Shown one piece after another: positions 7,301 to 40,746 of a DNA stretch of 64,000 bases. The notes under the pieces are model-generated. The model did no database searches and had not been told where the DNA came from. It worked only from the letters and a program-made list of their open reading frames with translations. The stretch spans positions 4,836,001 through 4,900,000 of the forward strand of contig NC_060020.1 of the NCBI RefSeq assembly GCF_021134715.1, read 5' to 3'. Made by a program: the position numbers and the translations under genes. Every line of letters starts with the position of its first letter. Positions within the stretch are counted from its first letter, which is position 1. The stretch comes from Daphnia pulex (taxonomy: Eukaryota; Arthropoda; Branchiopoda; Diplostraca; Daphniidae).

Positions 7301-10300
7301 ATATTCCTGAGCTAGGCGATTGAATGGAACTGTTTTCTTTTGTCGTTTCAACTCACTGAGGTTTTTTAAGCAACTTTTTTGTAGAACGACTGCAGATCAG
7401 GCCCGGTTTTGTACCTTTTCTGATGAGCTAAACAGTCAAAAACGAAAGACTTCAAGTAAAGTGCAACTTGAAAATTTATTGACCAAAAAGGAAATTTGCT
7501 CCACACCGGCGACTCCTCGTTTCCCTAACAACAAAACCAAAATTCCTACAGATCCTTAGACAAGGGCAGTTGTGTTAGCAATAACCACTGAATTTAATAG
7601 TAAATCCCTTTCAAGTTCACAAAAAACATTGTCACTAAATGATAGGATTGCGTGTATTATATACGACGCGAATTGTTTTGTAATAATGCATTAGAATCTA
7701 TAGATGTATATATTTTGTTTTCCTTAAAATGTTGGCGGCACACAAAGAAAGCACGAACCATTTGTCTGCACGAACTCTCTATTTGCTTTCGTTTTAGATT
7801 TGAATTTTTTGGTTCGTGTTTGGCGATATTTTATTGGACACTGATGTATGATGGGCGACTCGCCTCGGAGCGACTGTCGTCACGATGGATGCTCCTTTTC
7901 CCAGTCTTTTGAAATACTAAGCATTATACAAGAGCAGAACCTTCAGTTGTGAGCTCTGACCCCCCTGGCCGTGCTCTTGTTCGTTGACAAGAAAATGGCT
8001 GCTTGAAATAGAAAATGATGTTGGATACGGAATTCTGTCAGAAACATCCAACTAATCAGTCAGAAAGCGCGCTACTTATTTGCCATGTTGTAGCAGTCCA
8101 CAGAGCTGATTCCGGTGTAAAAGCGTAAAAGCTTTGTCTGATTGTCCTTTTACGTCAGCAAAAGGACACATCTGGAATAACTGTCATCAGTAAGACCCCA
8201 GAGCTTCGCGGTCTTTTGGCAAGCTGATGAGATGTTATTAGCTTAAGATTTTATTTTTGTGTTGTTTCCTTATGTTGTAAAGCTCTTGCAAAGGGCAAAT
8301 CCGAGATTTATCGTACATGCCATCCGACGTACAAGTCTCGCGATAACCGTTTTCTACTCGGAAATGGCTGCCACTGATTTAAAGCATCGGGAGACACCTC
8401 GTAGGTCGTGTTCACGTGCTGTTGTTTAGCGAGTACAGCAACCTCTTGAGACTAGACCACCGGTTTCCAACTTGTCAAGGGGTCTGCATGCTTCATTAAC
8501 AACAGTCTACCTTCAATTCGATTCGTAGACTACGCTGAATAACGCGCCTGATAAAGTGACGGTCAAATTTGACCGCACCGCTCCTTGTGATACAGACCAC
8601 AGAATGTAGGACACGCTGTTTAATCTTCAAGCAGCAGGCCTAACTTCAGCACGGTATTGTGATTGCAATTATTGCTGCTCGCTTTGTGTTTGGCGTTCTG
8701 CCATATTACTTACAGTATTCCAAGAATCAAACTAATTCCTCCCTGTCAAAACTACACAGAGAGATCCGCGGGGTTTGAAACTACTCCTCTGTCTAACGAA
8801 CAACATTTCCACCGACAAAAGCTAGAGTAAAAAATGCGCAATTCTTTTGTTGTCTGCCTTTGATAGCAGTGCCTGTATTTCATACGCATGTACTGCACGT
8901 CGGCTTCTTTGATATCTATAGAATGCTAGAACACCGGTAGTATGCTGGGCTTTAGCTAAGATATGTTAATACGAGGAAAGTCCCCAGAGCAGTCGAACAC
9001 GGCTTTATACTTTGCCGAACACGGAAAAATGATCAAAACTATGGGAAAGAAGACAATGGATGCACACAGAAAAGCTCGAGGCTCAACGTTCGACTACTGT
9101 GAAATTGTCGCGGGCGGGGTATTAGTGCGAAAAATTTGAATAAGATGTAGTGTTATTTCGCAACGCTCAATCTTGATCCTCAATCGATAATATGACGAAA
9201 GGATCTCAGCATATTTGTTGGTTACCATTTCAAGGATTTTGTAATTATAAAATCCTTTGCAAAGTCCTGCGATTTTTTTTTGTCTAAGCAGTTTTAATAA
9301 AGAAGCGAATCGATTTCGTCTTCCTGGATCATTTATATTTAAATGCAAACAAGTTTGAACGGTACAGATCGAGTCTTTTGATGTATTTTCACCAATTCCA
9401 TATAGTTATACGTATCAAATAACCGCAGTCCCAATATTCTTTCTTCAAACAAAAGGTTTCACGTCGTTGGTTTTCTAGATTTTACCCCGTCGAAAATTTC
9501 CATTCATCAAAATGAGTGATGACTTTGGCGCTTCTGAAGAGGGGATGTGATTCACGGCGCTTATCACAACAGGCTCTTACTGATAGTGTTTGGTGTTTGC
9601 GGAAACGGTGTTGCGGTATATGGCGATGCCGATTCCATTATGAAAAGTCTTACCGCCCGTGGCAGCCTTTTGCTTCTTGGTGACTTCGCGCTTTTCTGGC
9701 GAACAACCCGCTTTGATTAATGAGTTTCCCGTTGCCCCAATAAAGTTTTGTTTGAAATTTTACTTATACCAAGCTAAACTGTTCTTCTGAACATGGTCCC
9801 AACAGTCGGCTTGCTGCAAATTGTTTTCTAAATGTCGAGTAGTTAATGATCACGAAAGTTTTATAGCTACCTCGTTTGGACTGTATTTAGTGCTTTGGTT
9901 GATTGATATTTCTATAATTTGAGTTGGTAGCTGCACGTGTGTACGTACTATACAGTAATTATACTAAAAAGCAGGTCGATACGGCGAATAGCACTTTTTC
10001 TGCATCAAGTTTTTGTTGAACAATTTTCTTTCACACAATATTCTCGTGTACGTTTTAAGATCCCTCTCTCGTTTTCCCAATATCGGCCATTATTAAAGAA
10101 AATAGGAAAGATTACCCTCTTCTTGACTGTAAAAATCCAATTAATCAAACGAATCAAATGTTTATCGTTTTAATTTTGTATTCCAGCACCTGCTGATTAT
10201 CAAACTGTAAAAGCAAAATTAATTAACTGTTGTCGGGATCTCTTTTCTGAAAGTTTACTTTATTATCTAACCCAGAAAATTGTTTAAAATCAAGCCGTTG

Positions 10301-17100: not shown

Positions 17101-19192
17101 ATTATGATCATTTTTATTTTATTCAGCTCAACTGCAAATTGTTCTCTTGTTTTTTTTTCTGTGGTGACGCTGACGAAGAACTGCATTTTATCAAGCAGAC
17201 GTCATCGTCGTGTCGCCGTTTTTTCTCTTCATATTTCCTCAAATTGCTTACCGCATATCAAATTGCCCCCGGTTTTAGTGGTGATGACGGAGAACAGCAT
17301 ATACATTTATCAGTAGGCGTTATCATTACCCTTTCATCCCGGTTATATTTTCGCCGAATTTTCTTAAATTACTTGCTGCTTCGCTTCGCTTGCCTTTTAA
17401 GTGATCGAATTAGATATATTGCAAATGAGTAAATGGTTTTATTTTGTTCAAGAAAAACCTAATTTTCTTTGGCAACGCCAGTGGCAGGATCCCGGCAACG
17501 CTTGAGTGAAGTAATAGAGTGCATTGCGAACTGGATATCTGTATTGAAATCTTGGCGATGCGATTGGCGAAAACTGACAATAAAAATTATAAGGTGAAAG
17601 CAAGTAGCCAAGTATACTCTTGGTAACTGAGGGATTGTCATTAATTACACAATCAAAATCGATAATGTGTCTTTCAGTGAATCGTCACGTAACTTTTCAT
17701 GTATTTTCTTCTAGAGCTTGACAGTTATGATATTGGATCTGTTATTTTTTTTTGCCGCATGTTGATACAATCGTAGACGAAACAAAAACACGGTTTCACA
17801 TGGCAGTACAGCTTTGATGGCAGCAATAAAATATTGGTAGTGTAGGTACGTTATTGCAACGCACATATAAATAATACTCTTTGCATCACTGTGAGTGTAG
17901 TATCACGGCTATTGTTTAAAAATGATCAGAAGTACAGTTAACTTAGACTCACACAAAATAAAATAATGGACGATCGTGGACTAGATAAATAGATCAAGGA
18001 ACATGCACCCACGCAGTCTGAATTGAAAAGCAATGATCAACGGATCGTTTATGATCCCCAACATCAATGGCATTTCCAGCTAATTATATCTGGTTACATT
18101 ATATGTGTATACAGGACCTCGTTTTCGGCGTTATTGAGTACCAATCAAACAGCCGCTCGCCTACTCGTTTTTGCTCCATGCGTCTGTTGATATTGTTACA
18201 TCCCCTTGCGTCACATGAATTCGTTCCCACATTAATAAACAAATCGCCCGCCGGTAATGTCTTACTAATGCTTGCTTGGGCTCTCCTTGATGCAGCAGCT
18301 GCAGTTTAATTGTCGGTAGAGAGATCGTGTAAACAGTGAAAGAGGTTATAACCCTTCAAGGTGACATCATATTACTATTTAGTTACCTAAATGCTGATTT
18401 ATTTCGGACTGGTGCTTCATTGTAAACGATTAATTTTTATGTGTTTAGAAATACTATTGTAAAGACGATTATTTTAATGAAAAGTAAATATACTCGCAGG
18501 AGCATGCTACATGCTACACATACGTATGCTACCTCGGTGCCCTATATCGCACGCTGAAAACGATTGATACATTTCAGAAATTGCTTTGCTTCAGTCTTGC
18601 AAATGTCAGGTAATATTCAAATTGTTATTCGTCAACTGATTTTGGAATTCCGTGTCTATTATGGTTATCCATTTGTGCAAACATGCCAGAAATGCAATAA
18701 GGGACAGAGAAATATAATTGCAAGCAATCAAAAGAATCCTAAGAATGCTTAATTTGAAACTAGAGCAATTAGATAGTTTACAGTTTACTTAACCACTGTT
18801 TTAAAGGAATTTGGCAAGCCGTGCCAGTTGCCACATCTCGCGGAAAATGTAAAGATAATAGTCCTGAAAATTGAAATACTAATTCCAATTACAAACAACT
18901 ATGTAATAGTTAAAGTAAAGTCATACAAACAACTCAGTAATGAGTAAATTATAAAGGGAGTGTAATTTGTGCAGAGCCATTTAATGTACTGTTAATGTCT
19001 TAATGAGCTCTGCTTTGTAGTGTTAAATATATAATTACATTGAAAACACTGCATTAAAAAGGCAAAAATAACAATTCATATGGAATAGGTTTCAGTGCAT
19101 GGGTATTCGAGGGAAAAAATTACCGCCGATAACTGTTTATTTTTGTATTAAAGTTTTAGTAAATAAAAGCAGTAAAATAAAAGGTTTAGTAA
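14109..19192. other. Upstream of the GPCR; no gene recognised
   Basis: Five kilobases of A/T-rich sequence lie upstream of the receptor start codon. They would include its promoter and any 5' untranslated exons, which I cannot place. Apart from the tandem duplication at 14.6-14.9 kb, only short open frames without family resemblance are present, for example 17070-17432 on the plus strand. Confidence 0.5.
14618..14860. repeat. Tandem duplication, two units of about 117-125 bp
   Basis: Two adjacent diverged copies start at 14618 and 14735. Each opens with GGTAAAA.CTACAG.GTGAGCAC, continues through GGATTC.ACT.CGACCAAT and ends with AAATTTAACTGA. The function is unknown. Confidence 0.75.
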
Positions 19193-22100
19193 AAAAGTAA
19201 ACTTTTTATTCCAATGACCCTAGATGGCGAAAACGTCGAATGATGAATCCGTGCCCCATCTCGCGGCAGTCGTAGAAAAGTGTTGTCTGATTTGGTCCAT
19301 ACGGAGCGCGGCTGTACTTCATGCTAAAGATGAAGCACGCCACGTCCACGTACTCACGGACACGGAGTCCGCCATTGCCCACCCAGTTCTTAATTCTTAT
19401 CGAGTCACTGTTGGAGAACGTTACCATTGAAGGGTACTTTCTTTCCCGAAATTTTTCATAAAAAAATGTTAATTCCTGCTTGTATTCTATAAGGCAATTA
19501 AATGTAAATTTTTTGTATAGTGAATTTACAGGTTACAGCCTTTAATTTATCCTTGGCAATTCCATCTGATCACGTTGCCTGAAACCACTACATTTCCCAA
19601 AATTTTGTCTTTTGCTGCTACCGGCTGTAGGCCTACGTTTCGTCATATGCAGCAATACTTCAGAACAGTAAAAGTTATTATGTTGTGTTGTTCAACTTTT
19701 TAACATTAAGGTTCCACATTTAGTTATTTGATGACTTTTTTTCTGATAGTTATCGAGTTTTTATTTTTCTATTTACAGCCAGGTGTCTGAGAAGTCAGAG
19801 AAGTCTGAGCTTCTTCATTGCAGTCGAATGTGCACATGGATTTGTTGGGTGAAAGGTGTTCCTCTTGCAGGCTTGCTACCTGCACCAGTTGTAGCTTTTG
19901 CCACATGCTGAAATACTTCAGAACAATTTGAAGTAATTAAGTTTATCAACTTTTTTATAGTAAGGCTACTCATTTACTTTGTTGATGTCCAGCTTGTTGC
20001 TTTGTATCTGTTGACTTTTCAGTTAAAACTGTTTTAAAAGTATGTCAATTGTTGATTCTTTTGTAATGTAATAGTAATTCTTAGGGATTGCTAAGTTTAA
20101 CTATGCTTCTGTCATTTTGTTTGTGTCACACAACTTGATTTTCTGATAGCAATTGATTTTTTTTTTCTCCAAGTATTACAGGATTACAGCCTCTTAGGGT
20201 CTGGGCCTCTTCAATCTTCATGGCAGTCAAATGTGCTCATGGATTTGGTGCCAGCTGGTGAACGGCGTGGTGAGCTGTTGAATGCAGACTCTGGTGCTGG
20301 TGTCGTTCGTTCAATTAACTTTGGACCCTTCAGTCGTTCGTTTATAAGTAGGTGTGCAAAATTCTGTCCGCCAGGTTGCGGAGTGTCTGCTCGTTAGTAT
20401 GTGACGAAATTCCGCCATTTGCTGTTGAGACAGTGGACGGGAATGTGTTGCTGACGGTGTTTTTTGCTTTTACATTAAAGAACGACCATTCGACCAAGCT
20501 GAAACGAAAGTGAACAACTCTAAAGCAAAGTAAGTGAATCGTGAGATAGTTTTTACTATTCGAAAAGTCCATTTTCTAATCTACTTGCATGTATTTTGTA
20601 AAAGCATGTCGAAGATCTTGCCTTTCTCCACGGTGTCGCTCGTCTTTGAGAGGGTCTCTACTATATTGCAAGACAATAATAAGATGTAAACAGGAAGTCT
20701 GAAATGGTAATGATAATTGTAAGATAAATCAAGTGGGTTAGCATTATGTTCTTGATGTCAAAGACAAGTGACATGATATTTTGTGCTTCTTATTAAGACA
20801 ATTTTTGTGGGAAGTTCTCGTAAAGAGTAGATATCACTTCAATTTTTTTGTTTTTCTTTTTAAATGTTATTATTGGTTTCTTTTTTTTCACGTTTTAAAT
20901 GGTTCATTAATGTTCTTTTGCTTTATGGGATTTTAGTTTAAAGTTTGAGCAGTTTATGGTGTTGCTGTTTGGTGTGGTTCAAAGTCATTTTCCAGTTGGC
21001 AGATGCACTTGAATGGAGCTTGTGCAGACTTACATGTCAACATCATACCTCAATGTGTTATTTGCCTATGCTTGTGTCCTTGCTGTGTTGAAGAGTTGGT
21101 GAAAATAGCCAATGTTGCCTGATGGCTGTCGGGCATATTTTATCTGCTTCATCTTGTCGATGTGTCATCTTTAGCTACCTGTACCGGTGTTGAGGTAATG
21201 CTTATTGTGCAGTCTCTTTTTATAATTGACTTTTTTAAAATGAAATCTCCATTTTCGTTTCAGTTGAATCGTTCGTCGCCGTTCTGTAGGTGGAACTGAG
21301 GAGGTTTTTGAAATCCAAAACTTATAAATTATGTAGATGTAGATAAATAACAAGTGCATATATGTGCTCCCTCCCTCCCTCCACATTTCTTTAAGTAAAC
21401 AGTAAATAACTCTCCCCTCTTGGTGATGAATCACTCGCTGTGATAACTGCGATAAGACGCGTGATGTGTGGAAAACTTGAAGAGCTACAAAACTCTTCTA
21501 TGATCAATTCACAACCCTTTACTTTTCCTTCCCTTCACTATAAATGTTTTCATATGATAAATATCTTCCTTAACGACTTTCTCCACTTTTTCTTCCCTGC
21601 AATGTCAGTCCTACGATTAATTGCTCCTACAATACCTGATCTGATAACATTAACTAATTCAAATACCAATACCATCGTTATAATTCTGAAATAAAATATT
21701 TATATATTATCATTACTAAATAACATTTTATTATTAAATAAACATAATCATTAATCAACGAAACAAAATATTACATTCAATTTTATCTTACTTGCCAAAC
21801 AGATCGTCCGGTTCAACACTTAATTATTTTTGCAGATTCTATATAAAGCTATTTTGGATGCCGGATTGAAAACCAACAACCAGAACTGATCTATAAAGAC
21901 TAGCATGCAGCCAATCAAGGCAGGGGGAGACACTGCCTTAATTGACTGCGACCAGGGAGATTACCCGGCCAGTGGTTGAGAGAAACCGGAAAAAGAGCGA
22001 AGAGTTGAGGAACAGTTATTACGAGAGCGATTAATCATAGTAGACTTCCGGCTTAGACTCATGACCCTCCAAAAGTTTTCATCGGATCATGCGCCTTGCA

Positions 22101-22880
22101 AGTCCTCGTTCGACCAGCACACTCCCTTCTTCCTGGTTGTCGTAGCGAGTGAGTGACCACCGGCGGGCGTTGGTTAGTGGTTAGATAGGGAAACGGGGCC
22201 ACAGAAAAGAAGGGAGCCCAGATATGCACTTGCAATTTATCTAACAACTACGCAATTTTCAGTCTTGAATTACAGCATTCTCTCGTCAGTTTTCACCAAT
22301 GGTTGAAGTCCATGACAAGTAGCGAAGGATTACCCTGTAAGCAGAATGAACATTTATTTGGATGACAATAACATTCAAATAAGATTGTAGCGACAGAAAG
22401 CAATACCTTAAATCAAGAAGGCCATATAAGGAAGTAAAAAGGGAGATTCAAGGGTAGCAGCCAACAGGTTAGCAGACAAGGAACCTTACTGAATAGTTCT
22501 TGTCCTTTTTCTTGAAAGAACATGACTTTTCTTAAAGTCTGTTAGGCAAATTTAGAAACTTGTAGTTTAGAATCAGCAAATATATAAAAAAATAAAGTTA
22601 CCTTGTTTAAACTTTGTCATCAATGTGCTTGACATCTATGATCTAATAAAAGATTAATTAAACAGTTATTAGTATACACTTGAAATCGTCTCTTAAACAT
22701 TAGATAGACTTGAGTGTAAACACTCAAAAAACCTTGAACAGCACGCTTTAATAAGCTTAAGCCTTGACTGACACGTTGAGAACACTTCAGGATGACACCA
22801 ATGCTACAAACTGCTTGCAGCAGCTGCAGCTCAACTTGAACTCCCGAGAGATGGAAGCAAATCAATGAACAACACATTGA
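19193..22880 (+). repeat. Left arm of the giant inverted repeat
   Basis: This arm is collinear, on the opposite strand, with the right arm. The section at 19560-20580 is itself made of diverged tandem subunits of a few hundred bases. Each contains a CAG/CTTCAGAACA block, a phrase like GCAGTC.AATGTGC.CATGG and a stretch ending in tyrosine-codon-free A/T runs, with no conserved frame. Short open frames such as 19224-19430 are not conserved in the partner arm as protein. Confidence 0.65.
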
Positions 22881-24399
22881 ATTGTGACACCAAGGACAGC
22901 AGCAACAGCTTAAAGCACATCTTTCACCATCTCCTCATTAGGCAGCATCTCCATCTGATCTCCATTAACAGCTGAACATAAATGTCCATCGGAACCTGCA
23001 TAGAAACAGAAAGATTTATCACAAGTAAGGCAAAGTGCAGAATGATAGGAATGAAGTTATTAAAAGGGTGATAAGTAAGGGAGTAGTAGTATGCGATATT
23101 CGTCAACAATCTGGAATCACTAACAGTAACAGATGTAGAAGTATGGTAGAAGCATGTAGAAGCACTGCTCATTGTAGAAGCATTATACCTTGGGAATTTC
23201 GTCTATTGTGATGTGTGATGCTGAGGTGGTGGCTTTTTGGTGAAGACGAGAAATAAATTTGGAGGGTAGAATATAACGTGAGTATTAAATTTATTTGTCT
23301 TTGTTAGTTGTTTTTTTTTCAATTGAGTGTCAAGTATTCAGTTGTCAACGAGCTAGAGCGGACATTGTTTTCACTGTCAAATCAAACGTTTATTTTTTCT
23401 GACGCTAGACGGCATAGCCTTTTATCATTTTGACATTTTCCGCTCAGTTTAGTAACGTTTATTGTTCACATCTTTGAAGAATTTCTTGCTGCTACTACAA
23501 GGAAATTATGTTTGGCAGCTATCAGTTTCTGTTTCAGCAACAAAGCTCACTTGTTAGTTTTTAATAATCATGTGCTTTTTTGGCTACTTCCGGTTTTCTC
23601 ATTTCAGTCAGTAGTTCAGTAAATATTAATTCGACGCACAAAAGAACAACATATTCGTGGTCCTCGTCAAATTTGTGATAAAGTTCATGTTTTTTTTTGC
23701 ACATACGCGTACTTCCGGTTTCGAGAATTTTCCTGAACTATAGTTCAGGAAAAATCTTGATTTTGACCAATTTCTGGATTTCGTTTAAATTACACCTAAT
23801 CGACCCCAAATTTCATGTAGATCACGAATATTTGGTTTGTTTTTATGACAGCTCAATGGTTAAGGCGCTATCGCTTACTTCCGGTCTACTTCCGGAAATT
23901 TTGCATAAAACTAGCAAGTGAGCTTTATTCTCTGTACAGTTCTCAAGACTGAAATTTAGGTTTTAGCGAACAAAAATGCGCTTTTCAAATTTTGTGAGTA
24001 TTTTTAAGACCAGCCCTTCAAATACTGAGTTTTGAGTCGTGTCAAATAGATGGCGTGTTGATTGTGTCAGTTATGGGCTTATGGCGGTTTGTTGTAAAAA
24101 ATTAAGCTGTCTTTTTTTCGAAAATTACCAATCAATTCATAGGTAAATTCGAGTGATTTCTTCTGTAACTTTTCGGTGATGTGTTCTATTCCGTGTAAAT
24201 GTTGGATAACCTAAATGTTTTTCATCAACTTACAGGAGAAAAGAGTCGTGTGGCCGTCGTGCCTACTGTTACTGTAAACTATTTTGTTCAAAATCATTGT
24301 ATTCTACTGATTCTACTAAAATATGCCATCGAAATGATACAGGTAACAACCGACACTAGCTTAATTACAGTAATGCTGAAAGTTTCAGCCTGAAACATT
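22881..24399. other. Spacer between the inverted arms
   Basis: Pairing between the arms becomes unclear here. The spacer contains four copies of TACTTCCGG (about 23584, 23709, 23874 and 23885) and a perfect 26-base palindrome at 23728-23753. No coding frame is recognisable. Confidence 0.55.
23728..23753. repeat. Perfect 26-bp palindrome at the centre of the inverted repeat
   Basis: The half-site is TTTTCCTGAACTA, followed directly by its reverse complement with no spacer. It lies within about 200-300 bases of the symmetry centre estimated from the large arms. Confidence 0.9.
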
Positions 24400-27300
24400 T
24401 ATTCATCTCATTTTTCATTAGGATTCATCATAATTAATACCTGTTGTTTGTATTGGAGTAATTCGACTTGCTAGATCACCAGCCCCAGCATGGACCATTA
24501 TCTCATTCCATCTTCTAGAGAACCTTGGATAACTGATTGCTGGTTTCATGTGTAAGTTCACTTTTCATGTCACTGAACTTTTTCGTTGAAATCTAATATG
24601 TATTTAAAGTATTGATCTGGGCTTTTGTCTTTCTGATGTTTAAGAGACAATTTCAAGTGTATTTTGATAACTGTTCAATTATACCTTAAGATCATAGACG
24701 TCAAGCACATTGATGACACAAACTAATACCTTTTAATTATAAACATTAAGATGACCCATTTTTAAATTTTATTTACAGGTTCTAAACTACAGGTTTCTAA
24801 ATTGGCATGACAGACTTTATGAGAAGTCATGTTGGTATCGTCGTGTTCTTTCAAGAAAAAGGACAAGGACTATTCAGTCAACAAAGTTCCTTGTTAGTTG
24901 TTTGCTAACCTGTTGGCTGCTACCCTTGAATCTCCCTTTTTACTTCCTTTACATGGCCCTCTTGATTTGAGGTATTGCTTTCTGTCGCTACAATTTTGTT
25001 TGAATATTATTGTCATCCAAATAAATGTTCATTCTGCCTACAGGGTAATCTTTCGCTACTTGGCATGGACTTCATCTTCATTCACTCGTGAAAATCAACA
25101 AGAGAATGCTGTAATTCAAGACTGATAAATTGTGTAGTTGTTAGATAAATTTCAAGTCATATCTGGGCTTCCTTCTTTTCTGTGGCGGCCCCGTTCTATC
25201 GCTCTCGTAATTATGTTCCTCAACCCCCTGCCTTGATTAGCTGCCTGCAAGTCCTTATAGATCAATTCTGGTTGTTGGATTGCCTAATTCCGCATCCAGA
25301 ATGTAACTATATTGAACTTGCAAATAAAGACAAGGTTTGAACCGGACGGTCTGTTTAGTAAATACTCGTTATTTTAACACTTTTTGATGAATTATAAATA
25401 AATTAAATATAATATAATTAAGTTTAATTAAATTAAAACTAGTTTAATTAAATTAAAATTAGTTTAATTAGATTAAAATAATCTTTAAATGAATTAGAAT
25501 TAAATAAATAATTCAGCTTAATTGAATAAAATTATTCATTGTTTTTATTTCAATATAAAACTCATGATAATTTATAACATTTAAGGTTTTATTTGTTGTG
25601 GGTATGTTATTGAATAGTAATTAGATATATAAATATCAGGTAAGGTTTTGTAGGACAACAGTTTACAGAGTTGTGATTGTTATGGGTTAAGGAGCAAATA
25701 ATTATAGGACAGACCTTGCAGTAGAATTGTAAAAGTGGAGTTCTGAAACAAATATTAAGGGAGCAAATAATCATAGAATAGTTTCCCTCATAACCCTCCA
25801 AATTTCCCACAAATCATGCGTCTTACCGCATTATCACAGCTGGTGATTAACCAGCTAGAACGAGGGGGGGGAGGTTGGTTACTGCTTACTAAAGAAAATG
25901 GGGAGAAGAAGTACAGATATGCACTTAAAATCATCTACATAATTTATCAGTCTTTAAATTTCAGCATTCTCTTGAATTTCAGCAGTCTCTTCAGTTTCAG
26001 CAATGGAACGGCGGCGAGCGATTGACTGTAATGAATTAAAAGTAAATAATAAAATGAGAATGTACAACAAACATTACCTCAAAACCGGTACAGGTAGCAG
26101 AAAATAACATATCGACACAAAGCAGCCGATAAAATATGCCCGACAACTATAAAGCAACATAATTTCCTGTTTTCATCACAATATTGTCTTACAATATAGG
26201 AAAAACCCTCTCAAAGACGCATCTACATGACACGGCAGCGACCACGTGGAGAAATGCATGATCTTCGATAAACCTTTACAAAAAAAATCAAGTAGATTAG
26301 AAAAGGGACTAAACAAAAGTAAAAATTTCCATAATTCACTTACCTGCTTTAAAGTTGTTCACTTTCGATTCAGCTTGGTCGAAGGGTGTCGGAATACCTC
26401 AATCGTTCTTAAATGTAGAATCGAAAAATACCGTCAGCAACATATCCCAGTCCACTGTATTAAAAGCAATTGGCGGGATTTCGTCACCTCATTCTCACTA
26501 ACGGAAAGACACTTCACCACCTGGTAGACAGAATTTTACACTCCTAGTGAAAAGAAATAGATCTCTCAGCATTAACGAACGACGGAATGGTCCATAGTTA
26601 AATGTACGAACAACATCAGCACTAGTCTGCATGAACAGCTCACCTGTCACCACACCGTACACCAGCTGGCTGCACCTAGTCATCTGCACATTGGACTGCT
26701 ATCAAGAGGCTTGAAGCCTCCGACCTTAAGAGGTTGTATTCCTACTTGGAGAAAAAACTCAATAACTATCAGAAAATAAAGTCATGTGTGACATGAACAA
26801 AATGACAGCATGGTTTAACTTTAAATTGTTCTGAAGTATTTCTGAATGTGACGAGAGCTACAAACTGTACAAGAAGCAAGCAAGCCAGCAAGAAGAACAC
26901 CTTTTGCCAGATGTCTGCAACAAATCCGTGTGCACATCCTACTGAGAGCTCAGACCTTAACAGGCTGTATTCCTACTTGGATGAAAAATCAATTACTATT
27001 TGAAAATAAGGTCATGTGTGACAAGAAAAAATGACAGAAGCATGGTTTAACTAAGCAATCTCTAGGAATTACTGTTGCATGACAAACATATCAACAATTG
27101 GCATTTTTTTTATGGTTTTAACTGATAAGTCAACAGACATAAAGCAAAAAACTACACATCAACTAAGTAAATGAGTATCCTTACCATAAAAACCAGACCA
27201 ACTCCATTATTTTAAACTGTTCTGAAGGGTTGCTGCATGTGACGAAAGGTACACTGTACAGATAGCAAGCAAACCTGCAAGACGACTACCTGCCAGCTGA

Positions 27301-30033
27301 CTGCAACTGCAACAATGCACATTGAACTTAGAGGCTCCTACCTTAAAAGGCTGTATTCCTACTTGGAGAAAAAAACTCAATTGCTATCAGAAAATAAAGT
27401 CATCAAATAACTAAATGTGTAACCTCAGGGTTAAAAAGTTTAACATAATTACTTTTACTGTCCTGGATTGTTGCTGCATGTGACGAAACGAAAAGGCGGT
27501 ACGTGCAGCAAGAGACGACATTTTGGGAAAATGTAAAGGCCACGTGATCAGATGGAAGTGCCAAGCATAAATTGAAGGCTATGTTACCTGTAAAGTGTTA
27601 ATTCACACCAAAAAATTTATATTTGATAACTTTAAAGATCAAAAGCAGGAGTTACCTTTTATGAGGAAAAGAGTGAGGAAAGAAAGTACCCCGCAAAGAC
27701 TAACGTGTGACGCATGAACATGTGATCATGAAATGAAAATGATATACGGTCCTTACCAACAGTCAAGGGCTGAATAGTTCAATCCCTAAACACACTGAAA
27801 TATTTATCCATCTAGTGACAGCCCTTAGCATCTATACAGACGGTACGACTGTCAGCTGCGTTAGCAAGGACGCAAGGTACATATACCCGAACCGAAGGAC
27901 TGTTTTTTGCCATTTTTTTTTCAATTGAAAAAACAAAATTGGACATAAGACTACAAAAGTTCGGAAAATTAAAAAAAATCATTAAAAATAAAAACAGCCT
28001 TTTTTAGATTTGCTTCAATTTAAATTACCTAGTCTGTATGTGCGTAAAGTCGTAAACAACACCACACTTGGTCCCTGAAGTTCGAGTCAACACTCAAGTC
28101 AACACATTAGATCGTGTTGCTAGATATCGACATTCGGGACTAACGGATTCGTCTGGAACTGCCGATGATTTCGCAGTCTCTGAAGATGATTCTTTCTGAT
28201 CGACATTTCATGTTCGAGCAATCAATTCTTCTTTTCCGCCATCCTATCCAATTCAGATTGCTGTTCGTTTTTCTTAGGTGTCGAATGTGGTGTAGCCAGC
28301 TTGGAAACCTCTTGACTTTACTGTTCCTTCTTCACTGGGCTTTTCCGCGGGTAAAGAGAATAATATGAGGCCACAGTAGCTTAAGTTCCGCTTTTCTTGT
28401 CTACACTCCGCAGTGCCTCACACAAAATTAAATTCTTCATTCTAGTCTAAATCATAAATAATTAAAAGAATCATTAGAAACATATAGGTAATTAGGCACG
28501 CATATTTGTACAGTGAAGAATCAAAAACATTCCACATACCAAAATGATTTTGGTCGATTTTTGGCAAAATCCACTATCCAAAAAACCTTTACCTAGGGTC
28601 GGAACACTGCAAAGACACGCCAGGAGTCAGGAAATCACCACATTCATGCTATTTATTCATTAGTACTAATATTCATACCATGTGTAAACACGAAAGATCT
28701 TGTTTCACAAATGTTTAAACTACTAATGGGAAAGATTCGCTGTTTTAACAATGACAATTCAATACAACTTAATTTGACTTTACTACCTAGCCCAAGGGGT
28801 AGCATTGAGCAAGAGAATTTCACTGTTTTCCTGGATCTCAAAACTCATTCCTATATCCATTGCCATCAATGACGTTCCCTGTCAGCAGTACTGCTACTTC
28901 TCGAGATCTACCAGCATGTTGAAGAAACTTACAATGGCCAAAACTGAAGCTCCATAATTCTGGTTGAAAAAGGTTAAAAATTACCAAAGTGTAATAATCT
29001 AGCAGGTAGTATACGCTTTTTAGTACTAAAATTCCAAGCAATTAGGTACTCTTCTACGTCTGTGACGGTTGACATACCTGACTGTTTTTTTTTTATCATG
29101 CCATTCCTACAAGAGTCCAGTCCATTAAAATAAAGTAGTCCATGCCTCCATGGTCTAAGTCCATTTAATATTGTTGCTCGTGCTGAAGAAAATTGACTAT
29201 AGAAGATTCATCTGATATTTGAGTCAGTAACAGAGGGAAACTTTTGGGGTTATTACATAAGGGTACTGATGCCGCTGAGGAAACTATAAGTAAATTATTC
29301 TTACCAATATCAATTTAAGTCAAATGAAAAACAAAGACAACATGAAATGCAGGGGACCGACACAATATAAATAAAAGTGATTGAGATTTTTCTCTAGCAG
29401 GACCCTTTCCTTCTTCATGGCAAGACACTGAATGGTTCCCGTTTTACTCAAGAGAGGTTTACTGTCATAACATCCACGTAGCTATTTTGGATAACTATCA
29501 CTATTTACTTGGAATTTTATATTTAAATTGCTATGATGCATCCCAGATAATTACTACTCAAGAAGAGTTTGATACCTGTTCAAGTGGCTCCATTTACCCC
29601 TGGCTGATATCCTCCAAAACATAAGTTCACATTTTATTATTCAATTACTGCAAAACTATACTCTCTATCTCAATGATAATTTCTACACTTTAACTGTTAC
29701 TACATTCTTTGCTGAAAATCTATAATTCTTACTTAACCAATAGTGGAATACTGTTTTCTTCTCACCGACCACAATTTAAACTTAACGGTAGTGAACTGCT
29801 ATTTGGGTACGTCATATTGAAATGTTGAGAGGTCTTACCTGACAATCGAAACGTGGTCGCGTACTCGCGTTGGTCGCCATTTCTTATCACTTTATCAGCG
29901 ATAGAATGAAAGATCCGTCCAACTCTAACAGTCGTAGTCCAACTCCAACACCGGAAAATTATTTTCCATGACTGCCGCGAGATGGGACCATCGTTCGACG
30001 ATTTCGCCATCTAGGGTGGAACGTTTACTTAAT
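24400..30033 (-). repeat. Right arm of the giant inverted repeat
   Basis: This is the reverse-complement partner of the left arm. It contains at least three tandem subunits recognisable by a block beginning GGCTGTATTCCTACTTGG (variants at about 26730, 26967 and 27347), followed by a run of A and an AAAATAA.GTCAT block. It is about 2 kb longer than the left arm, because 27600-29760 has no clear counterpart at the matching place. Confidence 0.6.
25380..25520. repeat. A/T-only tandem repeat
   Basis: The sequence is short tandem units built from TTTAATTAAATTAAAA with a recurring CTAG or TTAG junction. It lies just outside the inner arm section of the inverted repeat. Confidence 0.7.
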
Positions 30034-30399
30034 CGTTAACGGTTTAAGATAATGTAACTGACTCAACGTTAAAAGCGCCGTCGAGCTGCTACTGTTTCAA
30101 TGGAAAACAGGGCAATACCATGTCAATTTGCTACCAGATATTTGTTTGTTTAATCGTTGTCTTGCGATATTTGCAACGGGCACTATTGCATTTCCATTAT
30201 TCTTTTTCATCACAGATTGATGGGTTGTTTATTTTCCTTTGCCAAAATTCGACGTTCATCAATAATTGAACTACGCAAGCGCCTCGACCTCGAGCTTTTT
30301 CGTTTGCCGTGCGCAGCCGTCGTGCAGGGTTTCATCATTGTGTGATTTCTTTTGATCTGGCGATATTTATGGTTCAGCTGCGGACGAAGAGAGACTGCC

Positions 30400-31037
30400 A
30401 TGTCAACTCCCGAGAATTTAACCATTTTAACGCCCACCAAAAAGGGTAAGGATTTGAATTGACACTATACACATTTCGCGTTCATGCTGCACTCATTTCA
30501 GTGAAGAGAAAGCCGAAAGCCTGTCTCGCATGTAAGTCAGCAGCACACGCCAGCATGCACGCCAGTCCATGCTGCACAGCACTGATATTGCGCATTGCTG
30601 TTGGAATTGTACATACAAGTACAACGGTATGGCATGGCACGCAATATAATAAATAAGCTATCATCGCTACTGACAATGTGATTGATGAAAACGCTACGCT
30701 TTTATGCTTATCTATATATACGGTTGAATTCTGTGAATGCTGTCTAGAGTCCCCCTACATACTTTATTAAGTCCGTGTTATTTACTGTACCATAAATGAA
30801 AACCTTACTTCTGATGCCGAATGTGATTATAATAGGCCTAAATTTTATTTATTTTTTTCAATTAATACAGAAACATTATCACATTTGGGAGATATGAACG
30901 AAATTGCTATTGCCAACGCTTACGCCACTTGTCACAACGTACAAGATTTACTACATTTGCGTGGATTTACGTCGAAACCAGCCTATACGAAGAACAAAAG
31001 AGGGAAATCCAAAAAAAGAAAGAAAGACAAGGGATGA
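30400..31037 (+). CDS. SMKR1: Small lysine-rich protein 1 (SMKR1)-like micro-protein
   Basis: Exons 30400-30445 and 30871-31037 join in phase to give 70 residues. The second exon carries the conserved core I associate with SMKR1: an Asn-Ala-Tyr stretch, then CHNVQDLLHLRGF, then a strongly basic tail (KRGKSKKRKKDKG) ending in TGA. Donor AGG|GTAAGG and acceptor AATACAG are good. An additional exon-like block at 30502-30531 (acceptor TTTCAG, donor CAT|GTAAGT, 30 nt) is phase-preserving, but its last base T plus the following AA makes TAA. It was therefore left out of the coding model. The function of SMKR1 is unknown to me. The match rests on remembered family sequence, not a search. Confidence 0.65.
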
Positions 31038-33297: not shown

Positions 33298-36200
33298 ATG
33301 TGGTTGGAAGATCGACGCGGCGTTGAACTACGCAATCACACAACAGGCGAAGTTTCCGTTGACAAGCTGTTTCATGAAAATATTTGTGTAAGTAATTATT
33401 TTTAATATTTCTACACGGATCACGGACTGTATGCTCACATGAGAGTAGTACATAAGTATATGACAGCACATCGAAACGTTTACTTCGTGATATTTTTAGG
33501 AAGGACCTTGTTCGGGAGAAGAAGTGTGCGTCGGCAGTCGAATGGTCCCCAGACAAATTCCCGCCAATTATAAACGACCAAAAGACAAAATTTTGCAACA
33601 GGCCAAGGAGTTTCTCGATGGATACTTCCGTGCTTCAAAAAAGTGATTTCCTATCAATTGTGTTGTGTATGCAAGGAAATGTAATTATTAATACGTGATG
33701 CGGGTCATTATACTTTCTATAAAAGATTTGCTTCAGAGGAACATATAGTGCGGTTGCTTCAAGTTCACAAGGACATTGAGAGTAATGGTAAGTATGATTT
33801 GACTTACGATGAGTTAGTACACGGATGTGGCATGGCTTGGCGCAATGCCCCACGATGCGTCGCAAGAGTTCAGTGGCAATCCCTCAAGGTAGGCCTATAT
33901 AACACTCTGTTAAAATATATGAATAAGAGAATTTTCTTTCAAATTCTCTATATACAAAATGTATAAGCTATATTACTGAGCTACCGTTTGCGTGATGCGT
34001 TATTTCTGTATATAGGTCTTCGATGCTCGGCATGTTCAAACAGCCCAAGAAATGTTCGATAGCCTTGTCGAGCACATCAAGTACGCAACAAATCAAGGGC
34101 GTCTTCGTTCAGTCATAACCGTCTTTCCAGCCCGCACTGACGGCCAGCTCGACTTTCGTATTTGGAACAGCCAATTGATTAGTTACGCTGGCTATCGGAA
34201 CCCGGATGGAACAATACAAGGAGACCCTTCCAACGTTCAGTTTACTGAGGCATGTTTTATATACGTATACGTATTGCTTGTATCTATACGCCTACCCTAC
34301 ACCGGAAAAATCATTAGCTATTTTCAATGCTGTAATTGCTTATTGTTGATATGTTTACAGCTGTGTCTCTCATTGGGATGGGATAGCCAAGAGAGAACTC
34401 AATTCGATGTTCTCCCCCTTGTCCTTCAAGCTAAGGGTCTTGCGCCCCAAGTTTTCTTACTTCCGGATGACATTGTACTTCAAGTTCCTCTCGTGCATCC
34501 ATCGTAAGTTTCTCTTTATTATACCGAAAACTTTTTTTTTTCTTTTTTAACTCTATTGACCAGAGTTTATTATACTATTGTACATGCTGTTGATTAAATC
34601 AACAATTTCAGGTTGCCTTGGTTCGGAGAATTAGGATTGCGTTGGTACGCCCTACCTGCGGTAGCCAATATGCTCTTTGACTGTGGGGGTATCCAGTTTC
34701 CAGCTGCTCCCTTTAATGGATGGTATATGGGCACAGAGGTAGGCTCTAGAGATCTGTGCGATCCTCAACGCTATAACATATCAGAAGTAAGATTTGATTT
34801 ACGCAAAAACTTTATTTGCAAAAAACAAAGTTAATTGAATTTTGACACAGATGATAGCCAGAAAAATGGAATTAGACACGAGCACTCACGCCACACTTTG
34901 GAAAGACACAGTTTTGTTAGAGGTGAACAAAGCGGTGCTGTACAGCTATCAAAAGTGTGGGGTGACTACCTGGGACCATCATACGGCCTCTGAATCTTTC
35001 ATCCAGTTTTACGCAAATGAAATGAAGACGCGCGGAGGATGCCCAGCCGATTGGATTTGGCTTGTTCCGCCAATGTCTTCTTCTTCTTCGCCACTTTTTC
35101 ATCAAGAAATGGCCTTTTACTTTCTCAGGCCGTCTTTCGAATACCAAGTATACTTTTTGTAATTTAAAGTAATTTTATATCATTACATTAATTTTTACCC
35201 AGATGGCAGCCTGGTCAAATTTCCAGACGAAATCATTAGTCAAAAGTAGAGGACAAGGTAACCCGAAGAAGAAAATGATGGCAGTAATTATAGCGGTTCG
35301 ACTGTGCAGTTATTTGTTCTCCTCTCGTTGGTCGAAGCGACCCAAAGTGGTCGTCCTATTTGCTTCACAATCCGGAAGAGCTGAAAACTTTGCGACGAAA
35401 GCATTCGTCAAGTTCAAATCTCTTTTTCAGGCCAATGTATATATAAAGAAGCTTGATCATTTACTCTGAGCTATATTATCGGCTTTTTAATAGATCACCT
35501 TTTCATTTGACTACAATATAGCTTTACTCTATGGCTGATTTTGATGCCAAAAAATTGCAAGACCAACAAGCAATTATTATAGTAGCATCGACGTTTGGAG
35601 ACGGAGAGGCTCCCATCAACGGAGAAGAATTCAAAAAAAATCTCATCAAAATGAGCAAGGAAAACTTTAAATTTCGACATATCAACAATGAACTCCCATG
35701 GTATGATGCCCATCATATAGTTGGCTATAAAATATATAAGGCATAATATTATTTTTTAAAGTATTAATCTAAAGAAAAGTTTTTTTTTTTTCTTGTATAC
35801 AGTTTTGCCGTTCTGGGTCTGGGGTCGACATCATATCACCAATATTGCGCGTTCGGGAAATTTGTCGACGTAACGTTTAAAGAACTGGGGGGAACCCGTC
35901 TGTTGCCGCTCGCCTGTGCCGACGAACTTAACAATCAAGAAAAAACTGTTCAGACTTGGTTGTCAGACATAACTACTGCGCTGTGTAAACAATTTCTCAT
36001 CGAAGGAATAAACTACAACAATTTTATTAATGAGGAATCATCTGCTGATCAGCCAAGCGTCCATTTTTCAGCGCGTTTCATCACATCATCCCAAGAGGAA
36101 AAAGAAGACGTCTTGCATGGTTAGAATTTTTATATTTTTTAATGCAAACCGTTTTCTATTTTAAAAAAAAATTTCGGTGTGTCTTCTTAGTTCTTTCGTC

Positions 36201-38046
36201 TGTCCACCAGAAAGAGGTGTCACTTGTTAGGATATCAGGAAAAACTTTAATCGGTGATCCTGCCAGGCCAAAGTATGTGATTGAATTTTTGTTACATAAA
36301 TATTTTTCTTATTAAAAATTAAACCCCATATTTTTGTCATTAAATAGCCGAGACGGTCATGCAACAATCCTCCTTCAGTTAAACACATTAAACCCGGAAA
36401 CACTCAAGTACAAACCCGGAGATCACTTGGCCGTCTTTCCTCGGAATAATCGAGATATGATGCAACGCTTTGTACTTCGTCTAAGAAACTGTCCCGCGTC
36501 CAAATCACCAACGATTCAACTTCAAATTCAGGGACCCAATGGAAACAGGGAAAATTGGAAGAGAATTCCGCCGTGTTCGTTCGACAATTTACTGGCTCGA
36601 TTCATAGATTTGACCAGCCCACCTTCACAGACTACTCTTCGACTTATGGCTTCGTCAGCAATCGATCAAAAAGACAAAATGCGACTTGAAATTTTAGCCG
36701 AGGTATTATACTACGGTATCGAAATAAGAATTAAAGTTTATAACTTGAGCTTAACTTTGATTTGATATTTATACGTATAGGATTTGGCAGCTTATCAAAA
36801 ATGGGTATCATCCGTTAATCCTAATATTGTGGACGTCTTGGAAGACTTTCTTTCCGTCGATGTCGATGCGGCGGCTTTAATCAGCACGCTACCAATGATT
36901 CAACCTCGTTTCTACAGTATTTCCTCTTCCGCTGCCTTTGCACCGACTGAAATCCAGTTCTGAAATTTTAATAATTTCTTTAAAATGAAAAAATACGTTT
37001 AAAAATAATAATCAATACAATTTTTTAAAATTTAGTCTAACAGCAAGTTTAGTTCGTTACCGGACTGAAGGTGGCAAAGGCCGTCTTTTCCACGGACTCT
37101 GCACTTCTTACTTGGAACAAACCAATCGGGGAGATTTTATCATTTGCTACTTCAAGTCCAATCCAAGCTTTCATTTACCACCCTATCCGTTAAAGCCCAT
37201 CATTTGTATCGCTGCTGGAAGTGGTATCGCACCTTTAAGGTAATAATATTTTCGATAAACCGACGAAGTAATTTGAATTTATATTCTGATGTCATACATT
37301 TTTAAAAATAAATTTAGAGGTTTCTGGCAACAAAGACATTTTGAAAAGGGCGCATTTCATCACACTTTTATCTCCAAACTATGGGGGAATTTTTCGAAAC
37401 GACCTGTCCAGCACCAATGTACTGTAAAAAAAAATTAACCTTATTTATTGAATTGCTCATTTTTAAAATGTATGTGCCTATCTATTCTACTATTTTCCCC
37501 ACTTACAGCGTCCAATCAGTATGGTGCAATCTACATGTACTACGGATGCAGAGAAAAAGCTTCACAGCCGTTTCGTAATGAACTGGATACGATGATGCAA
37601 CATAAGGTCATCACCAAAACCTTTGTGGCATTTTCTAGAGAAACCGCAAAGCCGAAAGTAAAATCAATAACACATCACAACAAAAGATGAAATGTTTAAC
37701 CTACAAAAAAAATAATTGACCCTATTATGCAGGAATATGTTCAAGATTTGCTTTGGAAGGACGGTGCTCGGGTGTCTACGCAAATTTTAAACGAGGGAGC
37801 TTACGTGTACATTTGTGGGAAGACAGCGATGGCCACCCAAGTGGAAGAGACTATAATCCGGATTATTCGTCAATACGGCGAAATGAATCACGACGAAGCG
37901 GAAATGGTCTTCAGAAATCTTAAAGTATAACGCGTACAAGTTCATCTCGCCCTTTTTTGTTTTTTTAAATCTACCTGACATTAAATTTTTTTCATTCAAT
38001 TTAGGCGGGGGGTCGTTACAAGACTGATATATTTGGATCAAAATAG
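33298..38046 (+). CDS. NOS: Nitric oxide synthase
   Basis: Eighteen exons join in phase to 1091 residues: 33298-33387, 33500-33642, 33726-33888, 34016-34249, 34361-34503, 34612-34786, 34851-35147, 35203-35436, 35522-35700, 35803-36119, 36191-36272, 36348-36702, 36781-36956, 37036-37239, 37318-37418, 37509-37657, 37733-37924 and 38005-38046. The enzyme converts L-arginine to NO and citrulline. The oxygenase domain carries a zinc-site Cys pair (34 and 40), heme ligand Cys122 in [13 protein letters not shown] and substrate Glu300 in [10 protein letters not shown] basic amphipathic calmodulin site lies near 435-462. The reductase has the FMN motif FASQSG (468-473), FAD motif PRFYSISS and NADPH motif [16 protein letters not shown]. 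The autoinhibitory insert of constitutive NOS is absent, and the protein ends four residues after the TDIFG motif. Intron 4 is GC-AG. An in-frame stop at 33265 supports the start. Confidence 0.95.
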
Positions 38047-38266: not shown

Positions 38267-40746
38267 TCAAAGGCGATCACCGTAATTGTTTAGAAAATCT
38301 ATAACAACTCCATTGGTCCATCCAAAACCTAATTGAACGTCATATTCTCCACCTCCTATATTTTTAAAAAATTTCGTAAAGGCATGCAATAATAATAATG
38401 TAATAAAATATGAATAAACTTACCTCCTGGAAGGCCAATAGACGTCACATCATACTTAAAAAAAAAAAGGTATTTTAATTTCTCTTCTTAAAACTTCACA
38501 CCCACCCCACCCTATACATATGCGATGCGAGTAATATTACGCAAGAAGATTCACTTTGAGAGCATATCTTGATTTTTTTGGTACAATACAGAAATAATTA
38601 AACTATCCAGTACCTTCTCAAACATTGAATTAGGGACGCTTTGTTCGTACGCTGCGAAATTGTTGTCGAGCCATTTGCGAGCGATATCGAAAGCAAGTGC
38701 TTTGGCCCTTGGGTCAGCTGAATTTTCCAGACCATAAACCATTAAATGCTAATCAAAAAATAAATCGTTTTGCGGATAAAATTAATGGTTACAAATTCAC
38801 CAAGTTATTCTTTATACCTGCAAGGGTGCCCAGCCATTTGGGTAGTCCCACTGCTGTCCTGAATTTTCCATCGATGTCGGGATACCACCAACAAGTCTAC
38901 ACATCGCAGCAATGTCAATGAACAGAGAAAAGATTAAGAAATTATTTAAAAATAATAGACTTACTTTGTAGCTTGGCTTCGATCAAGATAGTCGAGTACG
39001 CGATTAATGACAGAACTGTTTTGAGGGGAAATTGGATCCCAGCATTCAGCCCATAGCGGAGAAATATTAGAAGCATAAAAGTAGTTTCTTGATCGGCTAT
39101 TTAACATGTCATAATCCAACCAAACACCTTCTTCCTCATTCCACAAAACCTACCAGCACGTAAATGTGAATACAGCTATGCTGGTGAAATAGCATAAGTT
39201 TTGTCGTTCTGATTAAAACATACCATTTGTATGGCCTCTTTCCATTTTATAAATTTATCCAAATAAAGCTGTGATTTTTCTTCGTCTCCTAAAAGGCTGA
39301 ACATGTTCGACAGCAGTTTTGCATTCATGCAAATAAAAGAATTTAAATCCACCGGTATAATATTTGTTATTTTGACATCGTTCAGTTCTCCAACATTGCT
39401 GCCATCTTCTGCAATGAACCATCTTGTGCTGAAATCCCATCCAGATTCTGCCCCAGATTTCATGTTGACATAAAACTCTTCTAGAGGTTTTCCACTCAAG
39501 TTTCCAGCTGTTCGAAAGTCCTCCCTTTTCACAATCATGTTATGTATCCTATAAGCGCTCTTTAATCAGTTATTAAACAAAAATAGCCTGTACCTGTAGG
39601 ACTCTGGCCTAGGTCCGTCAAATTCGACATTGTATCGTGCAAGGGTGTGCCCTTGAACTGACACTGTTCGATTTAATAACCAAAATTCAAATTCTTTCTC
39701 AATTAGATTAATTCGTTCTCGAAGGAAATCAACGTCACCAGTTGCTCTCACATAAAGATCAACCATTGGGATCAACATTGGAGGTTGAGATCTTTGTTGG
39801 TAATATATGCGTCCGCCGTTCGGAATTAGTCCAAACATGTCCACCATTTGAACGAAGTTATCTAACATTCCTCTGACCTAAATACATTTCAGTTTAAAAT
39901 TCGTTCTTTAGCCCATTCATGTCAGAAATATTTAAAATGTTTTTATACATACTGTTTGATTCATTTGAGAGATAAGAAGACCTTTTACGATCCAATAAGA
40001 ATCCCAGTAATAGGATTCTCTGAATCTTCCACCGGGAACAATAAATGGATTCGGAACATATACAATGGAGTATAAATCAGGATTATCACGAACGTCGTCT
40101 AGAATTACAACACAGAGCCCATAGTCCAAGCAGTGAAAGAGAGAACACCAGCAAAGAATAGAAATTTAAAATATGATTCTCTTATCTGGCGGAAAGAAAA
40201 CTGGACTGCAATTTAAGGAAATCAATAAAACCATAATGTTTCTTTTTAGACCATCACCTTTTATCTGTCGCCCGAGAGATTTCCATCCTTCATGAAGACG
40301 ATTCCCCCAATTGCGGAACTCTGAATTATTAATTTGAGATAGAAATGGAGGATCACTGATCCAGTCCGATGGATCCCAATTCTGGAATTCCAATCCTTCA
40401 GCTTCAAAATTGCTGTCAACAAATGCCTGTAATTCTTCTTTGGTTGGCTGGTTTTCAGTGTCGGTCATGAACTGTGAGAAACTAGTTAAGACTATTTCTG
40501 GATTAAAACGCAATTTTTTATCCACAAAAGTTTTGGAATCTTTGTATAACTCCGCGTTTTGGACAGCATGCAGCAGGGGTCCATAGCAATAAATTTCGCT
40601 AAAATTAAAACGTAATTCTGGTAATTAAGCAATTTCATTGTTAGATTACAGAAATTTTCTTGCCTGGGGCAGGGTGGTGGCAGTTGAAAAGTTGAAGTTG
40701 AAAAGGTCCAAGCAATTATTGCTAAAACGGTAATTAATCGAGACAT
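38267..40746 (-). CDS. TREH: Trehalase, secreted soluble type (GH37)
   Basis: Ten exons join in phase to 565 residues: 40746-40664, 40598-40258, 40098-39953, 39877-39594, 39548-39224, 39149-38965, 38896-38818, 38748-38614, 38454-38424 and 38355-38267. The enzyme hydrolyses trehalose to two glucose molecules, the main step releasing haemolymph sugar in arthropods. An N-terminal signal peptide (about residues 1-20) is followed by the PCPSEIYCYGPLLH start of the mature domain. Trehalase signature 1 (PGGRFRESYYWDSYW) lies near 163 and SGWDFSTRW, with its catalytic-region Asp, near 323. Signature 2 (QWDYPNGWAPLQ) is at 470-481, and the glycine-rich GGGGEYDVQLGFGWTNG lies near the end. There is no C-terminal membrane anchor, so this is the soluble form. 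Intron 1 has a GC donor (CAG|GCAAGA). It converges on NOS. Confidence 0.95.

Follow-up and report, generated by a model that had tools for sequence, protein, structure and literature searches.

A giant imperfect palindrome in the Daphnia pulex genome, possibly a decayed foldback-like element

The analysed stretch of DNA, hereafter the window, comprises 64,000 nucleotides of contig C4 (C4:4836001-4900000), one of the 13 contigs that make up this 133-Mb genome. An imperfect palindrome at 19.17-30.05 kb of the window is read here, tentatively and with slightly less than even confidence, as an old, non-coding, non-autonomous transposon-like element of the foldback type, which is bounded by a terminal sequence T and carries two opposed modules of core and tail (C-X). 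For the window taken by itself, the analysis mainly accounts for an odd pattern by a decayed repeat.

Results

Self-BLAST of the window revealed that the left arm (19418-22709) and the right arm (24627-27706) are reverse complements with 69-81% identity. The arms were paired in five inverted blocks, 22192-22709/25195-24627 (81%), 19418-20206/27706-26948 (73%), 20093-20696/26821-26164 (73%), 21112-21504/26160-25770 (69%), and 21789-21927/25364-25224 (78%), and an outer inverted pair was found at 19217-19279/30017-29962 (81%). The giant imperfect palindrome proposed in the first-pass annotation is therefore real and was accurately placed, with inverted blocks at 19.4-27.7 kb and the outer pair at its proposed ends. 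The common centre proposed near 23.5 kb holds for the five main-arm blocks, the midpoints of which (23457-23694) define one axis, but not for the outer pair, whose midpoint is shifted to 24617 because the right side is about 2 kb longer. An ungapped repeat search of the window yielded 25 inverted pairs, in agreement with the self-BLAST. When the left arm was shuffled 100 times with dinucleotide composition preserved, the maximum score was 31.9 bits, against 523 bits for the best inverted block; alignment columns at E<1e-5 summed to 3086, and no match at E<1e-5 was obtained in any of the 100 shuffles. An assembly artefact at the window was rejected because the arms are only 69-81% alike.

The order of modules, read rightward, is T, inverted X, inverted C, J, H, C, X, a repeat segment, and inverted T, where H is the head (from 22858), C the core (to 25195), X the tail (25224-27706), and T the outer end. 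The left T lies at 19165..19292 on the + strand (position 19165 was estimated by eye; the matches of relatives begin at 19178-19217). It is followed on the - strand by the left arm (19418..22709), an inverted C-X of a dispersed repeat delimited by self-BLAST and by relatives, and by J (22710..22845), with which the left copy ends on its inner (5') side. On the + strand, the right copy consists of H-C (22858..25195, from alignment to relatives) and X, the right arm (25224..27706), with internal direct repeats at 26718-27403. Beyond it lie a repeat segment (28407..29011, + strand), pieces of which match C3, C4, C5, and C11 among others, and the right terminal region (29645..30047, - strand), made up of T at 29962-30047 and a short inner piece at 29645-29788. 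This inner piece, which lies some 0.2-0.3 kb inward of the right T, recurs beside T at 218, 232, 298, and 4248 kb of C6. The middle of the palindrome, 22.86-24.6 kb, is no neutral spacer; it belongs to the right-hand copy, of which it forms the head.

The two repeat copies are thus in opposite orientation and joined head-to-head, which contradicts the tail-to-tail duplication suggested earlier, as does the non-sister position of the arms in one of the two segments tested (X1, below). J was contiguous with C at no fewer than eight other loci (best 40 of 252 candidates scored), and in seven of these eight the match stopped at 22843-22845; the left copy therefore has its own type of head. The junction of J with H (22846..22857) recurs at C4:5280174-5280468, where the alignment runs unbroken across it, and the breakpoint is located at GGAAG, a motif present in both partners by eye. 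Because the same fusion occurs at this second C4 locus, it probably either had a single origin followed by copying, or was carried along in a duplication of the pair inside C4. Beyond H at the second fusion locus (C4 5.28 Mb), right-arm X did not appear among the matches listed, with the best 40 of 224 candidates scored. Nor could a T be made out at the expected distance in L047 and L027, the loci at C4 5.28 and 4.60 Mb in which inverted X lies beside H.

Copy counts of the arm sequence, a check named in the first-pass annotation, showed that the arms belong to a dispersed repeat, for which candidate places in the genome number in the hundreds. At least 531 first-look candidates were obtained for 22192-22709, of which the best 40 scored, the window itself included, matched at 81-100%; at least 653 were obtained for 22720-23700 and at least 224 for 26150-27700 (best 40 scored in each). 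Copies were located on contigs C1 to C12 among the matches listed, and several related copies lie on C4 at 4.60-5.54 Mb. A single copy on C8 (L021), with no inverted partner within the 10 kb examined, is collinear with both window arms: its positions 2986-5238 align with window 22858-25186, and its blocks at 4722-8102 align, reversed, with window 22714-19503.

The kinship of the arms was analysed in trees whose rows are sampled copies, a subset of all. In the X1 tree (10 rows), the right arm grouped with the C4:4603 kb copy (support 99/97), and a topology holding the window arms together was rejected (p-AU 3e-11). In the tree of segment C (25 rows), the window arms also stood apart, yet their sister placement was not rejected (p-AU 0.137). 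On these trees, the window palindrome was probably not formed by doubling a single copy; exchange between copies could also have produced non-sister arms.

T, with L055 as the query, was detected at 31 genomic places and is rarer than the arm repeat. Six convergent T pairs were found within 30 kb, at 10.8-21.1 kb from start to start: the window pair on C4 (about 19.17/30.05 kb) and five on C6, at 218/232, 298/319, 1222/1233, 3524/3539, and 4248/4264 kb. T also bounds other palindromic stretches elsewhere in the genome. A same-oriented H or core was located 2.1-6.0 kb inside 11 of the 31 T, among the 52 H/core places used, which comprised the first 40 of the 49 matches of the H search (nine smaller ones dropped) and 12 placed from sampled loci; for the pair at C6:1222/1233 the position used was that at which the core becomes readable, instead of the start of H. 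The left T of the window, 3.66 kb from H at 22858, is one of the 11. Among the H/core places listed, the opposite-oriented H closest to any T was 6.3 kb away, at the right T of the window. This right T is also among the 20 of 31 T without a same-oriented H among the H/core places listed, a shortfall that partly reflects the limit of the search.

The non-autonomous foldback element offered in the first-pass annotation fits best: as in an element bounded by long inverted terminal repeats, the palindrome of the window is enclosed by inverted T almost exactly at the proposed coordinates, though at one relative the palindrome passes T. At C6:3524/3539, mirror symmetry runs at least 60 bp outward past T, and the 65 bp outside T were found only there; therefore, T is not always the edge. 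By eye, the symmetry ends at TGTCCGT at C6:298/319, where the right side carries an additional tandem unit, and inside T at C6:1222/1233. No target-site duplication was recognised by eye at the window or at C6:298/319; the ends have decayed or are imprecise, and both sides could be read in few copies. PiggyBac-type ends were considered because of a possible TTAA that was noted by eye next to the right T; this was dropped because homology continues outward in the relatives. Local alignment gave weak T matches above control in L028 (on the strand opposite to that expected) and L046, and none above control in 15 further loci tried.

Among 16 sampled stretches of 10 kb, seven, chosen for paired inverted matches, contain large palindromes: six on C6 (L009-L014) and one on C11 (L015). 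In L022, one of the nine further stretches, the outer inverted pair is shorter (0.2 and 0.8 kb at 93-94%), and no long inverted pair was found in the remaining eight. Substitutions between arms numbered 0/4575 in L009, 3/3427 in L010, 66/3720 in L011, 105/3925 in L013, 3/3599 in L014, and 40/3253 in L015; L012, outside this count, has arms at 94-98.5% by blastn. Arms within a copy are thus 97.3-100% identical by substitutions (six loci), as against 82-96% in long blocks between copies, with one 0.6-kb block of L013 and L012 at 74%. An assembly artefact is not excluded for the 100% palindrome of L009; L011, L013, and L015 carry 40-105 arm substitutions.

In the tree of segment C, the arms were sister within L010, L011, L014, and L015; those of L009 were identical to each other and to one L013 arm, those of L012 grouped with L020, and those of L013 were non-sister. 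The arms are accordingly mutually closest, or not separated, in four to six of the seven palindromes, and one palindrome departs from this. Such kinship is expected under recent palindrome formation or arm-to-arm conversion. The alignments L011/L014, L013/L014, and L009/L010 pass through the palindrome centre, and the centre of L009 matches part of an L013 arm, so that the centres are not all the same. In some palindromes the centre includes a portion of a second repeat, which is about 2 kb long and has inverted ends of about 345-380 bp. The sequence immediately upstream of H in L009 gave nine first-look candidates and ten matches, all on C6. The cores of the C6 palindromes point to the centre, an orientation different from the head-to-head interior of the window. 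The C6:3524/3539 copy was read minus about 2.3 kb of each arm. Judged by sequence comparison, these C6 and C11 palindromes, a new observation, suggest a transposon-like palindrome family shaped by recent formation or arm-to-arm gene conversion.

ORFs with 80 or more codons numbered 219 in 26 sampled loci and window 18500-31000, and 159 of them were non-redundant. The Pfam scan of 76 of these 159 returned five families, none of them a transposase; ten of the 76 came from the window, in line with the earlier remark that no transposase frame is present. The genome-wide transposase search was confined to MULE domains and gave 55 matches, none on C4 or C6. A Mutator source was considered and set aside on this distribution, and no autonomous partner was found among the 76 scanned ORFs or in the MULE search of the genome. 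Gene content (catalase, with others by eye) shows an animal, and by eye the window contains a gene for nitric oxide synthase. Neither an Rfam family, at gathering threshold, nor a tRNA was detected in the window, nor was there a match to the phage collection, as expected for an animal.

Discussion

In the proposed mechanism, the inverted T ends would enclose a J-headed and an H-headed C-X copy, fused head-to-head at about 22.85 kb. T would be the recognised end, and a transposase acting in trans may once have moved such elements. Pairing of the inverted arms may have driven internal rearrangement and, in the C6 relatives, homogenised the arms; the window copy would since have lost both mobility and homogenisation. 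By its divergence, this copy is presumably old and inactive.

Counted for an element were the inverted and decayed arms, a repeat family spread over the genome, the convergent T pairs with their spacing to H, the short piece that also lies beside T on C6, the large palindromes among the relatives, and the J/H fusion common to two C4 loci. Counted against it were the lack of a recognised target-site duplication (window, C6:298/319) and of a transposase in the scanned ORFs, the fact that T is not always the edge, the 20 of 31 T without a same-oriented H among the places listed, the head-to-head interior unlike that of the C6 copies, the lack of a T that stood out at the other C4 loci (5.28 and 4.60 Mb), the absence of a second arm among the matches listed at 5.28 Mb, and the lack of MULE matches on C4 and C6.

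The main rival is that two independent insertions or fragments of an abundant repeat came to lie opposed by chance, so that the palindrome would be no element of its own; we regard this as a serious possibility, although less than probable. Hundreds of candidate copies were available for such an event, the X1 arms are non-sister with the right arm allied to another C4 copy, the J end is common to eight other loci, and the second fusion locus has neither T at the expected place nor a second arm among the matches listed. Against chance stand the matching inverted T at both outer edges, a T-to-H spacing like that of relatives, and the recurrence of the head-to-head fusion elsewhere on C4. The two readings overlap, because the inner inverted copy may come from another copy within one T-bounded unit.

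A decayed foldback-type element is our preferred reading, and a more far-reaching version of it, which we consider rather unlikely, is a family of giant mobile palindromes, 11-21 kb between T and dense on C6, whose arms are kept identical by arm-to-arm gene conversion; the C4 copy in the window would then be a relic that homogenisation did not reach. Among the literature matches listed, none had a title on a palindrome family of this kind, and the word "palindrome" is absent from the available portions of PMC12221973 and PMC8527503.

An inverted segmental duplication of one copy by the host, through breakage and fold-back repair followed by divergence, is improbable. The single axis and long arms, the compatibility of segment C with sister arms, and the related C4 copies at 4.60-5.54 Mb would agree with it, but X1 rejects sister arms, the arm heads differ (J versus H), and copies occur on C1 to C12 among the matches listed. 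A selected source of hairpin RNA or siRNA is very improbable: the arms share 11 exact complementary runs of at least 18 bases, but the longest is 47 bases, so that any long dsRNA would be heavily mismatched, and the arms are 69-81% alike, the loop is long, and no Rfam family was detected in the window.

Foldback (FB) of Drosophila has long inverted arms, many repeat-only copies, structural variation, and exchange between copies. The window family resembles FB and Galileo in these features, and differs from them in a T-to-T half-length of about 5-10 kb in the relatives, with a variable orientation of interior modules; Galileo is not known to reach such half-lengths. Galileo, of the P superfamily in Drosophila, likewise combines long inverted arms with repeat-only copies, structural variation, and inter-copy exchange, according to the available part of its description (PMC3573991). 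A difference from this P-superfamily element is that neither a P-type transposase (76 ORFs scanned; MULE domains genome-wide) nor a target-site duplication (window and C6:298/319) was recognised in the window family. The Mutator/Foldback element Tm1 of root-knot nematodes is described, in the portion available, as having composite inverted repeats of variable length and members without transposase, together with 9-bp target-site duplications and a Phantom-type transposase (PMC3169594). Inverted arms of variable make-up and copies without transposase are likenesses to Tm1, whereas neither its 9-bp duplications nor its Phantom-type transposase was found in the window family, and no MULE match lay on C4 or C6. 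By analogy, the window element appears to work like the foldback type; we do not assign it to FB, Galileo, or Tm1, since neither the transposases nor the target-site duplications of these elements were recovered (MULE only in the genome-wide search).

Provided that the relatives on C6 are mobile palindromes and that homogenisation acts between the arms of each copy, they would form a natural replicated system, with seven members partly read and arms from about 94% to 100%, in which it could be tested whether arm-to-arm conversion begins at palindrome formation and when it ceases; the window copy would be the end point of that series. Sex-chromosome palindromes, the arms of which are kept alike by arm-to-arm gene conversion in the partial accounts available to us, resemble the C6 relatives in having near-identical arms within a palindrome. 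They differ in that the present case is an interspersed repeat family, with no conserved host gene claimed in the scanned ORFs of the arms and with diverged arms in the window. Should the giant-palindrome reading be true, palindromes born from transposons would behave like those of sex chromosomes.

Palindromic relatives of the window copy

Seven large palindromes related to the window copy were found in 10-kb stretches of the same genome (L009-L014 on contig C6 and L015 on contig C11), and their arms were approximately 94-100% alike. The arm pairs were mostly closer within one copy than between copies, with L013 as an exception. An imperfect palindrome of 372 bp (84%; L009:3543-3910) lay at a similar position in most of the relatives compared; self-comparison of the window did not reveal it in the window copy. 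The center of some giant palindromes was occupied by a repeat of approximately 2 kb with inverted ends of approximately 345-380 bp (L013:3991-5600 and L011:4302-6222), which was also present in many other places and whose inverted ends, as judged by eye, begin near CAGCTGGCTGCATCAAATCC.

The palindrome family was dense on C6, whereas none of the 55 Mutator-type (MULE) transposase matches from the whole-genome search was located on C6 or on C4, the contig of the window.

Other features of the window

Exons of nitric oxide synthase, trehalase, and catalase were read by eye at 34016-36762, 39179-40624, and 45275-46900, respectively, all to the right of the palindrome, and the catalase reading was confirmed for one exon. 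Two direct repeats of approximately 1 kb each (6515-7532 and 60333-61339) showed 69% identity at a spacing of 54 kb.

Motifs in the terminal sequence

The short inverted sequence at the outer ends of the palindrome was compared among the window (19217-19260) and the copies L055-L059. The perfect palindrome TAAACCGTTAACGGTTTA was present in L055/L056 and L059, and the remaining copies carried imperfect forms of it. All of them contained CCCTAGATGGCG or close forms, which resembles an invertebrate CTCF-type motif.
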